From an uncultured Bacteroidota bacterium (GTDB lineage: Bacteria; Bacteroidota; Bacteroidia; Bacteroidales; 4484-276): 36,031 bases of DNA. The stretch is taken from contig CAJATL010000421.1 of assembly GCA_903944895.1 (NCBI GenBank), positions 1-36,031 on the forward strand. The letters run 5' to 3'. The notes beneath the pieces are model-generated. The model worked only from the letters and a program-made list of their open reading frames with translations, was not told the origin of the DNA and made no database searches. The position numbers and the translations under genes are program-made. Below, one piece after another: positions 2,806 to 30,346 of the stretch (positions are counted from its first letter, which is position 1; each line of letters opens with the position of its first letter).

Positions 2806-2821
2806 AGAAGGGGAAGAATGT

Positions 2822-2977
2822 GACAATTTGATAATTCGACAATTCGATAATGGAAGAATGGAATGTTGGAAAGATGGAATAATGGAATGTTGGAGCGAAA
2901 CCTACCAGGTTTGCAAAACCTGTGAGGTTTATGGAAGGATGAAAGATTGGAATGTTGGAATAATGCAATGTTGATGC
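2822..2977 (+). repeat. octamer-phased degenerate repeat array (first half of gap 2806-3214)
   Basis: Starting 16 nt after the GWxTD gene stop, the sequence reads as consecutive 8-bp words: GACAATTT (2822), GATAATTC (2830), GACAATTC (2838), GATAATGG (2846), then AATGTTGG at 2862 and again at 2886 with AAAGATGG and AATAATGG between. After an interrupting hairpin (2898-2930) the same phase resumes, with words such as GAATGTTG at 2950 and CAATGTTG at 2966. Open frames across it are by-products of the repeat. No gene is supported here. Confidence 0.75.
2898..2930. repeat. interrupted palindrome inside the octamer array
   Basis: AAACCTACCAGGTTT (2898-2912) and AAACCTGTGAGGTTT (2916-2930) flank a 3-nt loop. 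The second arm is the reverse complement of the first except at two positions, and each arm is itself an AAACCT...AGGTTT inverted repeat, so single or double hairpins can form. It resembles a REP-type intergenic palindrome. No U-tract follows, so terminator function is doubtful. Confidence 0.6.
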
Positions 2978-3003
2978 GTTAGCCAAAATCCCGCTTCGGC
3001 TGG

Positions 3004-3110
3004 AGAAGATTGGAATGTTGGAGGAGTTGAAGGTTGGAATAAAACCTAGTGACTAAAGTTCTTGGCTCTTGGCATTTTGCCCTCTGCGCTCTGCTCTTTG
3101 CGCTCAGCAC
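3004..3110 (+). repeat. second octamer block followed by a heptamer block
   Basis: Positions 3004-3048 hold a further GATTGGAA/TGTTGGAG/GGTTGGAA octamer stretch. From 3062 the unit becomes 7 bp: TTGGCTC (3062), TTGGCAT (3069), TTTGCCC (3076), TCTGCGC (3083), TCTGCTC (3090), TTTGCGC (3097), TCAGCAC (3104). The GC-rich words share GCTCAGC- and GCTCTGC-like strings with the array at 24530. The rest of the gap (3111-3200) shows no gene. Confidence 0.65.
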
Positions 3111-18901: not shown

Positions 18902-19807
18902 ATGAACTGGGAAATCTACCTCAAAGGTTTTAAGGCATTTTTGCAACTCGAAAAATCACTCTCACCCAACTCGGTTGAGGCTTATCTGCGGGATGTGACA
19001 AAACTGAAGGAATATCTTGAAATAAAGGGGCAAAATTTGTCGCCTGAACAAATCGACCTGAAACTTCTGGAAACCTTTGTTCGCTGGATTGCTGAGATAG
19101 GATTCAGCGCCACAAGCCAGGCAAGGATTATTTCGGGAATCCGTGCATTTTATAAATATTTGCTTATCGAGGACATCCAGAATAAAAATCCTGCCGAACT
19201 CCTCGAAGCACCCCGTACAGCAAGGATTCTTCCTGACACGCTTAATCAGGGTGATGTGATAAAACTGATCGAAGCAAACGATCTGTCGAAACCGGAAGGC
19301 GAACGCAACAAAGCCATTATTGAAACACTTTATGGTTGCGGATTGCGTGTTTCGGAATTGGTAAATCTCAGGATTTCGAACCTGCATTTCGATATTGGTT
19401 TTATTAAAATTCTTGGCAAGGGAAGCAAGGAAAGATGGGTTCCTGTTGGAGAAATGGCCATGACTCAAATAAACACCTACCTCAACTTTGTCAGAAATCA
19501 GCAGGAGGTTAAAAAAGGAAATGAAGACATCGTTTTTTTAAATCGGCGCGGCAGCAAGCTTTCCCGTGTCATGATTTTTAATGTGGTGAAACAGTTGGCC
19601 AAAACTGCAGGAATTCAAAAAACCATCAGCCCGCATACGTTGCGGCATTCGTTTGCCACCCATTTGGTCGAAGGTGGCGCTGATTTACGTGCTGTTCAGG
19701 AGATGCTGGGACACGAATCCATCACAACAACCGAAATTTACACCCACCTCGACAGGCGGTTTCTGCGTGAAACCATCGAAAAATATCATCCGTGGGGAGG
19801 AGGTTGA
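18902..19807 (+). CDS. xerD: tyrosine recombinase XerD
   Basis: Site-specific recombinase that with XerC resolves chromosome dimers at dif. The 301-aa protein has the N-terminal SAM-like core-binding domain (residues 1-100, SLSPNSVEAYLRDVTKLKEYL) and the catalytic domain with the full residue set: R149 (GCGLRVSELVNLR), K173 (LGKGSKERWVPVG), H245 and R248 (SPHTLRHSFATHL), H271 (MLGHESITTTEIYTH) and nucleophile Y280. Length and the lack of extra domains fit housekeeping XerD rather than a phage or transposon integrase. A heptamer repeat array starts 3 nt after the stop. Confidence 0.92.
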   Translation: MNWEIYLKGFKAFLQLEKSLSPNSVEAYLRDVTKLKEYLEIKGQNLSPEQIDLKLLETFVRWIAEIGFSATSQARIISGIRAFYKYLLIEDIQNKNPAELLEAPRTARILPDTLNQGDVIKLIEANDLSKPEGERNKAIIETLYGCGLRVSELVNLRISNLHFDIGFIKILGKGSKERWVPVGEMAMTQINTYLNFVRNQQEVKKGNEDIVFLNRRGSKLSRVMIFNVVKQLAKTAGIQKTISPHTLRHSFATHLVEGGADLRAVQEMLGHESITTTEIYTHLDRRFLRETIEKYHPWGGG

Positions 19808-19809
19808 AG

Positions 19810-20094
19810 AGTTGGCAGTGGGAAGTTGGCAGTCGCCAGTAGGCAGGCGTAAGGCGTAAGGCGTGAGTCAGCAGGCGGCAGTGGGCAGTGAGAAGTCGGA
19901 AGTCGGGAGTCCGAAGTGGGAAGTTGGCAGTCGCCAGTAGGCAGGCATAAGTCGTAAGGCGTGAGTCAGCAGGCGGAAGTGGGCAGTGAGAAGTCGGGAG
20001 TCGGGAGACAGAAGTCGGGAGTCCGAAGTGGGAAGTTGCCAGTCGGCAGTTGCCAGTCAGTCAGAAGTTGCCAGTCGGCAGTTGCCAGTCACCA
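19810..20094 (+). repeat. heptamer-phased repeat array with 98-bp super-repeat
   Basis: From 19810 to 20054 the sequence divides without slip into 35 consecutive 7-bp words of form AGNNNNN, mostly AGTNGGN; recurring examples are AGTTGGC, AGTCGGG, AGTGGGA and AGGCGTA. After an 11-bp irregular word (20055-20065) four more heptamers follow to 20093. Words 19817-19914 and 19915-20026 form a higher-order repeat: 14 words, 10 identical and 4 with one change, plus exactly two extra words in the second copy. Two + strand frames stay open through part of the array because 21 nt equals three words; I see no sign of real coding. The remaining 110 bp to 20203 hold nothing recognisable. Confidence 0.85.
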
Positions 20095-20203
20095 GAAACG
20101 GGAAGCCAAAAAAAACAGGAACGTCCGCACTAATTGGTTTATCAGCCTCAGTTACCCGAGGACAAAATGCGTCCGTCCCTGCAATACAATAAAATCTTAC
20201 GAA

Positions 20204-20671
20204 TTATTCTTCGTCTTCATCGAAATCTTCGAGGAAAACGCCCCAGCTTACTGCTGAAAGAACATTGTCTTCAAAGAAAAAGTCGATCATCGCATCATCA
20301 AACGAAACGCGTTTTTCGTTCTCAGCGTCTTCTGATTCCATCACTTCGGTGTCGATTTCATTAAACCCGTTGGCTTCCATAAGCTTAATCAATTCGTCCT
20401 CTTTTAGGCTAAAAACTTTTTTACCATAGAGTGTAGCTTCAGGATTATCAGTTTCGATGTTGATGAGACCGGGTTCCTCTTCATTTTCGAAAAATGCTGA
20501 AACCTGCAAATCCCAAAAATGATATACTGTGGTACTACCTTCGTCGTCATCTTCAAAAACCTCATCTTCGTCAGGTTGACCAAGATATCCGAATACTTCT
20601 TCGGGAGATGCTCCAAACTCAAGCGCTCCAAAACCTTCGAGTGGCTTGATTTCTAACTTCATTTCTTTCAT
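20204..20671 (-). CDS. hypothetical acidic protein
   Basis: 155-aa, strongly acidic cytosolic protein with no signal peptide or membrane helix; Asp/Glu make up roughly a third of residues and the end reads EDFDEDEE. The opening LEIKPLEGFGALEFGASPEEVFGYLGQPDEDE resembles the 'G.S.eeV...LG.P' turn found in many small alpha/beta domains, but I cannot name the family. Start could be ATG 20671 or ATG 20662 (MKEM). It lies 20 nt after the SDR stop on the same strand and is probably co-transcribed with it. Function unknown. Confidence 0.75.
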   Translation of the reverse strand: MKEMKLEIKPLEGFGALEFGASPEEVFGYLGQPDEDEVFEDDDEGSTTVYHFWDLQVSAFFENEEEPGLINIETDNPEATLYGKKVFSLKEDELIKLMEANGFNEIDTEVMESEDAENEKRVSFDDAMIDFFFEDNVLSAVSWGVFLEDFDEDEE

Positions 20672-24503: not shown

Positions 24504-24529
24504 GTTATGATTTATTGTTAGTGAAAGGT

Positions 24530-24680
24530 GCTAAGCGCTCAGCGCTAAGCGCTCTGCCCTTTGTGATTTTATGATTTGTGATTTGAGTTTTGAGTTTTGT
24601 GATTTCAGATTTATGATTTATGATTTGAAAATTGATGTTTGATATTTGAGTTTTGAATTTTGAATTTTGATTCTTGTTGG
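24530..24680 (+). repeat. heptamer-phased array in a divergent promoter region
   Basis: Most of the 232-bp gap between the AsmA-like gene (minus) and the lipoprotein gene (plus) is a run of 7-bp words with a single 8-bp word at 24572: GCTAAGC (24530), GCTCAGC (24537), GCTAAGC (24544), GCTCTGC (24551), then GATTTGA, GTTTTGA, GATTTAT and ATTTTGA types to 24677. Composition shifts abruptly from GC-rich to AT-rich words at about 24558 without loss of phase. The minus-strand open frame through it is a by-product. Confidence 0.8.
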
Positions 24681-30276: not shown

Positions 30277-30286
30277 CCGAGGAAAA

Positions 30287-30346
30287 AGTTGGCAGTTGGC
30301 AGTTGGCAGTCGGAAGTCGGAAGTTTCCAGTTGGACAGTCTGCAGT
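30287..30346 (+). repeat. short heptamer array after the C1 peptidase gene
   Basis: Seven in-phase words starting 11 nt after the stop: AGTTGGC three times (30287, 30294, 30301), AGTCGGA twice (30308, 30315), AGTTTCC and AGTTGGA, then a decayed tail to 30346. The words AGTTGGC and AGTCGGA are identical to those in the array after xerD, 10 kb away, and in the same orientation relative to the upstream gene. Confidence 0.75.

Follow-up and report, generated by a model that had tools for sequence, protein, structure and literature searches.

Between a xerD-like gene and its convergent neighbour, the genome of an uncultured Bacteroidota bacterium carries an array of 7-bp words whose letters vary while their phase is kept, and this raises the question of what builds such an array. 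An earlier note on the locus had proposed either a copying mechanism that works in 7-bp steps or selection on spacing. We analyzed the array in the window, that is, the whole stretch of 36,031 nucleotides that represents contig C421 of the source draft genome (G000; 7.17 Mb in 424 contigs), elsewhere in the same genome, and in other genomes of the phylum. The named relatives of the XerD encoded here also point to the Bacteroidota.

The array and its site in relatives

The features of the window are collected in Table 1. As had been noted, the words stay in phase over 245 bp. The identity at lag 7 over positions 19810–20094 was 0.658, whereas 2000 mononucleotide shuffles gave 0.287 ± 0.025 and never exceeded 0.378; these shuffles, together with one dinucleotide shuffle of the genome sample described below (1.18 Mb), ruled out chance periodicity. 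The two blocks starting at 19817 and 19915, which had been described as 94/98 identical apart from two inserted heptamers, matched at 92 of 98 positions without gaps and at 95 of 98 when one 14-bp (two-word) insertion was allowed, and the description was essentially right. By contrast, the claim that length changes occur only in sevens was contradicted by a 4-bp step of the AGT phase at 20055–20059, inside the claimed range. The observation was therefore largely right for 245 bp, while its strictness was overstated. As a tendency, change in 7-bp steps is supported by the 98-bp duplication, the two-word insertion and the dominance of lag 7, but it does not hold as a strict rule.

Table 1. Features of the window, with positions counted from its first letter
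Feature	Position	Strand	Remarks
Heptamer array, 35 in-phase words, all AG-initial	19810..20054	+	G-rich strand in xerD sense
4-bp step (AGTC), then further words in new phase	20055..20094	+	
First 98-bp block, 14 words	19817..19914	+	
Second block, 112 bp (14 words and a 14-bp insertion at ~19997–20010)	19915..20026	+	
xerD-like tyrosine recombinase	18902..19807	+	Phage_integrase, E 9.7e-47; stop codon ends 2 bp before array
Conserved structured element with U-run, right boundary of array	~20105..20182 (approximate limits)	-	
Convergent gene, 155 aa	20204..20671	-	No Pfam match
Octamer array, G-rich strand on +	2817..2894	+	11 bp past stop codon of + ORF
Heptamer array, C-rich strand on +	3060..3104	-	Shares gap with octamer array 2817..2894
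AT-rich heptamer array with GCGCTTA-type words	24521..24676	+	
Short AGTTGGC array, one out-of-phase step	30286..30346	+	9 bp past a stop codon

The site was compared between species at this one locus. In G001, which belongs to the same genus, a 52-bp array of like style extends from the xerD stop codon to an A-run and the structured element, whereas the distance from stop codon to A-run is 300 bp in G000. The difference between these two species, 248 bp (35 × 7 + 3), is not a multiple of 7, at odds with the prediction that lengths at the locus would differ by sevens among relatives, and the orthologous array in G001, read by eye, also has a 4-bp step. The array is absent from G005, a member of another genus, where the xerD frame enters the A-run and its stop codon is directly followed by the structured element. 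This element ends in a U-run, lies 3′ of the 155-aa gene, is common to contigs of three genera-level relatives (G000, G001 and G005), and shows compensatory change in 4 of its 23 predicted pairs. No known RNA family in Rfam matched the window at gathering thresholds, nor positions 19700–20300 at E ≤ 1.

A genome-wide family of arrays

We searched a sample of G000 that comprised 87 stretches, 1,183,616 bases without N in total (contigs C1–C79 and further parts of five longer contigs). It contained 39 lag-7 arrays, 38 of which were intergenic, and 22 lag-8 arrays, 13 of them intergenic; genes were defined by an ORF rule (minimum length of 80, 90 or 150 aa) on a fragmented draft genome. Lag 7 prevailed over all lags other than its own multiples, with lag 8 second, lags that are multiples of neither gave 0 to 6 arrays, and one dinucleotide shuffle of the sample gave none at lags 7 and 8. 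A coding repeat was rejected for this sample, since 38 of the 39 arrays were intergenic by this simple rule. The 39 lag-7 arrays in 1.18 Mb correspond to approximately 240 per genome, and the array of the window is, by extrapolation, one locus of a few hundred. Scoring 40 of 130 candidates yielded at least 52 matches to it in G000. Words outside the AGTYGGM type were also found there (AGGCGTA, ATTTGTG, GCGCTTA, GAATGTA and AATTTGG, and the octamers TGGAAGAA and AATTCGAC). Matches to the window array were patchy across 59 genomes, being present in 11, its own included, at E ≤ 0.001; within the order, at least 36 of 393 genomes, again with its own, had matches at E ≤ 1e-6 when two candidates were scored per genome. 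An AGT-every-7 pattern occurred in 31 of 43 relatives that had been chosen for their IVP matches (see below), in a search whose reversed-pattern control also scored high because of the presence of other heptamer words.

AGT-type segments in G000 had 46 out-of-phase steps in 8980 bp, 13 of them in one array. The longest array (L061 7364–8854; G000 C168:27364–28854) covers 1.4 kb of one strand and has 13 steps out of phase, and its contig, C168, also bears many other arrays and an IVP gene. Two further motifs were seen by eye. A short inverted repeat, CCGATAGCTATCGG, lies inside or before octamer arrays (L068 17060–17407 and L214 850–900). A similar linker, GGCAGAGCGC, joins AT-rich heptamers (CAAATCA) to palindromic GCGCTTA-type words at L078, L087, L182, L058 and window positions 24521–24676, in contrast to the AGT family, whose word order is free.

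Searching with a profile built from the window array gave 68 segments containing 1209 words of 183 types, in which position 1 was A in 98% and position 2 was G in 97%. When 112 pairs of duplicated blocks within arrays were compared, differences at positions 1 to 7 numbered 16, 0, 188, 144, 179, 90 and 245. Because a trained profile favours AG, the core test was repeated without a profile. An adjacent pair of positions was conserved beyond chance (p < 0.01) in 20 of 46 lag-7 arrays of G000 (≥70 bp), including the window array, where both core positions were at 1.00, and in 5 of 20 lag-8 arrays. In other sets, the counts were 1/3 in G058, 1/6 in G003, 2/7 among the named loci and 0/3 among the phylum loci at lag 7, and 1/1 in G058 and 1/3 among the named loci at lag 8. 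The profile-free result was weaker than the profile-based one. Neutral mutation and slippage do not predict conservation of the AG core.

We also asked how words are distributed among loci. Word triples common to different loci numbered 115, compared to 43.2 in word shuffles, an excess due to homogeneous runs: triples of different words numbered 14 and 12.7, respectively, and spread by copying of multi-word blocks between loci was not supported. Shared pairs were fewer than in shuffles (377 versus 435 ± 30), and quadruples numbered 0 versus 0.2. The loci of one genome have a common vocabulary but no common word order. The vocabulary itself is genome-specific, the words of G003 ending mostly in A and those of G058 in C; 10 of the 20 stretches of G003 and 5 of the 20 of G058 had been chosen for having hits.

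The arrays share a tandem 7-bp period and many dispersed, mainly intergenic copies with intergenic heptanucleotide repeats (STRR/LSSR), STRR being a name used for such repeats. Units of that class are near-identical, whereas 183 word types occurred among 1209 words here and lag-7 identity within the window array is 0.66. Heptanucleotide repeats form a known bacterial class in the available text of two papers (PMC4679880 and PMC4692102, which cite Mrazek et al. 2007); among long simple repeats, heptamers are cited as the commonest type in many bacterial genomes, and the reason given for the number seven is only a proposal (available text of PMC4679880). The earlier statement that no named family like this exists in Bacteroidota went too far, as the same text, published in 2015, describes direct repeats of TAACTGA in Beggiatoaceae, Cyanobacteria and five Bacteroidetes, accompanied by other heptamers. 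Like the arrays here, these have a 7-bp unit, are intergenic, are long in Bacteroidetes and leave some orthologous gaps without repeats; as far as that text describes them, they consist of one exact word, unlike the set of related words built on an AG core here. None of 271 loci contained a tandem pair of TAACTGA, and single TAACTGA words in the window are at chance level. GGGNATC-type repeats of Xanthomonas and Nostoc are likewise dispersed heptamers with a non-coding excess and lengths that differ between relatives, but, in the parts of PMC4692102 at hand, they are near-uniform, G-quadruplex-capable and prefer four units, whereas the words here are degenerate and lack a G-run per word. BrickBuilt, a MITE of Porphyromonas gingivalis, is also from Bacteroidota, always intergenic and made of tandem units in a dispersed element; it differs in its 23-nt unit and its leader and tail inverted repeats (available text of PMC4596501).

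Strand polarity of the arrays

Where the edge of an AGT-type array lay within 12 bp of a stop codon, the G-rich strand was in sense, and thus ran into the gap, in 30 of 31 cases; restriction to ORFs of at least 150 aa gave 25 in sense and 1 opposite. For all word types within 10 bp of a stop, 26 were sense and 6 antisense, the exceptions being mostly AT-rich or GCGCTTA-type. Taking the nearest edge within 300 bp, lag-7 arrays at stops in G000 were 26:13 overall and 24:3 at ≤12 bp. In the count of AGT-type edges, the lean reversed at 13–120 bp, to 5 G-outward and 19 C-outward arrays (by difference between distance classes). Array-free gaps of G000 showed no strand lean after stops (87:91) but one before starts (149:73), so that only the stop side clearly exceeds background. 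Local composition was rejected as the cause of polarity at stops, and stands as a possible cause of the lean at starts.

In other genomes and sets, lag-7 arrays nearest a stop codon were 11:1 in G003, 2:1 in G058, 8:0 among the named loci and 2:0 among the phylum loci, the last without two loci of the source genome itself (L262 and L270). Lag-8 arrays were 2:0, 1:0 and 5:1 in G003, G058 and the named loci, respectively, and 12:3 in G000. These counts, like the nearest-edge counts of G000, leave out arrays whose tested stretch had a G–C difference under 3.

Opposite arrays within one gap were also ordered. In the G000 sample, the G-rich array preceded the C-rich one (G-then-C) in 10 gaps by profile and in 11 by a profile-free count that dropped skews under 0.2, and the reverse order was found in neither. 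In 8 of the 11 pairs, an octamer G arm was combined with a heptamer C arm of other words. Other genomes gave 5:1, the exception being a named locus (L133) with the C-then-G order. An exact-pattern search of 59 genomes found no C-then-G; G-then-C occurred at six places in G000 and at a single place in each of G001, G057 and G058. Among 395 genomes of the phylum, G-then-C was found in eight (G000, G441 at seven places, and six others at one each) and C-then-G in two; however, a reversed-pattern control, which is also an inverted repeat, matched in ~20 and ~14 genomes in this search. Single places are therefore at background level, and only G441 adds weight; several of the single-place matches are plain hairpins. 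Switches from C-type to G-type inside one array were seen by eye at L061 11429–11519 and L092 5508–5572.

Two observations stand beside these counts. G441, an unrelated genome of the same class and another family, has the words AGTAGTG, AGTGGTG and AGTCGTG, and no C-then-G beside its seven places. On the given contig strand, which should be arbitrary, all eight mixed gaps of the G000 sample (L061, L068, L094, L184, L207, L212, L214 and window 2817–3104) have a G-rich octamer array on the left and a C-rich heptamer array on the right.

Both the polarity and the constraint on the core are genuine properties of the arrays. A published system would fit the strand rule: in F. litoralis, 12 of 14 sets of TAACTGA point forward towards a start codon, and one follows a stop codon in reverse orientation (available text of PMC4679880), which would place the ACT strand into starts and the AGT strand after stops.

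Mechanisms that may underlie the arrays

With moderate confidence, we favour the view that the array belongs to a degenerate heptanucleotide satellite, present throughout the genome, in which duplication of whole words is the main source of change. Such a satellite would occupy the stretch that separates the stop codon of xerD from the convergent gene's structured element. Duplication and insertion of whole-word blocks can be seen directly; slipped-strand mispairing or unequal recombination, with words re-aligning in register, would account for changes in length, the enzymes being presumed, and loci would swap or re-seed short words with sufficient frequency to keep a common vocabulary. No cellular function would be needed. 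The absence of an array at the xerD site of another genus and the 52-bp array of the same-genus orthologue speak for this view, as do the many intergenic lag-7 arrays, the spread of block differences over the word positions, the lack of an excess of shared mixed triples and the known bacterial class of heptamer repeats. The orthologous length difference that is not a multiple of 7 speaks against it. Plain slippage, moreover, predicts neither the constant AG core nor the strand rule nor a common vocabulary without order, and some constraint is acting on the AG core and the strand. The association with IVP genes, considered next, also argues against the satellite and hints at an element.

One G000 gap (C24) contains a G array, an ORF and a C array, and the ORF matches PF05635 (23S_rRNA_IVP; E 4.7e-29). 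The same layout was found by sequence in G008 and G038 and by coordinates in G734. The arrays could thus be arms of an intergenic element related to the 23S rRNA intervening sequence (G arm, IVP gene, C arm), most of them now solo or decayed, although we regard this as unlikely. One-sided IVP neighbours of fitting strand (G483, G506, G663, G000 C121 and G000 C24:644–931) are consistent with it, whereas arrays beside IVP genes in G031 and G000 C168 have the opposite strand. Of the ten G000 IVP genes with listed coordinates (11 matches in all), at least four had an array within ~120 bp; another, on C21, had none within 400 bp. Among 30 further genomes chosen for having arrays, at least 5 of 48 array hits (at 4 loci) lay within 350 bp of an IVP gene, where ~0.1 were expected; that limit was set after the distances had been seen, and the expectation was computed with 235 IVP genes while the per-genome counts sum to 222. 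In the first 59 genomes, the figure was at least 3 of 45 array hits outside G000 (~3e-5 by hand with the same formula), namely 10 hits from seven genomes and 35 scored hits of G001, G003 and G058, none of the latter beside a listed IVP gene. Conversely, 43 of the 48 and 42 of the 45 hits had no listed IVP neighbour, and no IVP gene matched within the window. IVP genes were present in 41 of 41 array-bearing genomes and in 33 of 48 others, a co-occurrence that genome size may confound. The known intervening sequence likewise has an IVP-family (S23) ORF between inverted repeats, and the Coxiella element carries three tandem heptamers ahead of its ORF; as described in the available text of PMC4990558, it lies within 23S rRNA and has a stem of 28 bp, whereas heptamer arms are intergenic here and most hits lack an IVP gene. 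The window array lies between xerD and a protein-coding gene rather than in a 23S rRNA insertion site, and an IVP ORF between inverted repeats, absent from the window, was present at three loci by sequence and at one by coordinates. We found no paper on the pairing of heptamer arrays with IVP genes in the literature searched.

The enclosed IVP genes may instead take an active part. A strand-polar process of Bacteroidota would then add G-rich words of 7 or 8 nt, with a constant core, variable slots and a genome-specific vocabulary, from gene ends into gaps; the IVP-family four-helix-bundle genes would be its carriers or agents, and the arrays the footprint of a word-adding element, not products of slippage. 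We consider this quite improbable.

Selection for RNA or DNA hairpins, acting as REP-like 3′ elements or bidirectional terminators, appears more doubtful still. Arrays adjoin stop codons, and RNA folding of four G-then-C heptamer gaps is far stronger than that of shuffles (z of −4.2 to −7.1). The window array alone, however, folds no better than shuffles (z −1.0) and does not consist of palindromic, stable-hairpin units, and z was +0.98 for an octamer arm folded together with the initial bases of the heptamer arm paired with it. Since the octamer and heptamer arms are different words in 8 of 11 pairs, no word-by-word stem is possible there, and such a stem is not a general reason for the G-then-C order. 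Matching arms were only slightly more alike than mismatched ones (p = 0.034, 13 pairs), which, together with the unlike arms, weakens fold-back or stem selection as a general cause of polarity. REP elements prefer 3′ regions. They also resemble the arrays in their many extragenic copies and alternating orientation (available text of PMC2817692), but are short palindromes, unlike the non-palindromic window array.

It is very unlikely that the arrays stem from telomere-like addition of G-rich words to 3′ ends at gaps, where joined ends would produce the G-then-C order and a template the core with its variable slots. A polarity common to heptamers, octamers and gaps with unlike arms agrees with this mechanism, as do the constant core with variable slots, which suits a template, and the vocabulary without word order, which suits templated addition; the start side is not clearly above background. 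A reverse-transcriptase-templated origin is disfavoured because a PF00078 search found no RVT_1 gene in the array-rich genomes G000, G001, G002 and G003, whose assemblies are incomplete, while 28 of the 59 genomes have one. The reversal of the strand lean at 13–120 bp from the stop also speaks against word addition. Along 30 arms, neither a growth gradient in the share of vocabulary words (p = 0.32) nor a placement of TA-ending words nearer the gene (p = 0.15) was significant.

Least probable is the spacing selection raised in the earlier note, in which each word would be a putative protein site and every third word would face the same side of the helix. An AG core that stays constant between variable flanks does look like a repeated site, but octamer arrays, whose 8-bp spacing misses one face every third word, have the same polarity and partly conserved cores, 3–4-bp phase steps are tolerated, and the orthologous array in G001 is ~6 times shorter.

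In the parts of the open literature that were searched, we found no description of an AG core with variable slots, of the polarity, of the vocabulary without order or of the IVP link, and the arrays represent a variant, with these four features, of a kind of heptamer repeat that is already known. The strand rule shared by heptamers and octamers, the near-constant core and the orderless vocabulary narrow the mechanisms that can produce such arrays, as neither plain slippage nor hairpin selection alone fits them, and the IVP link points to a testable protein family.
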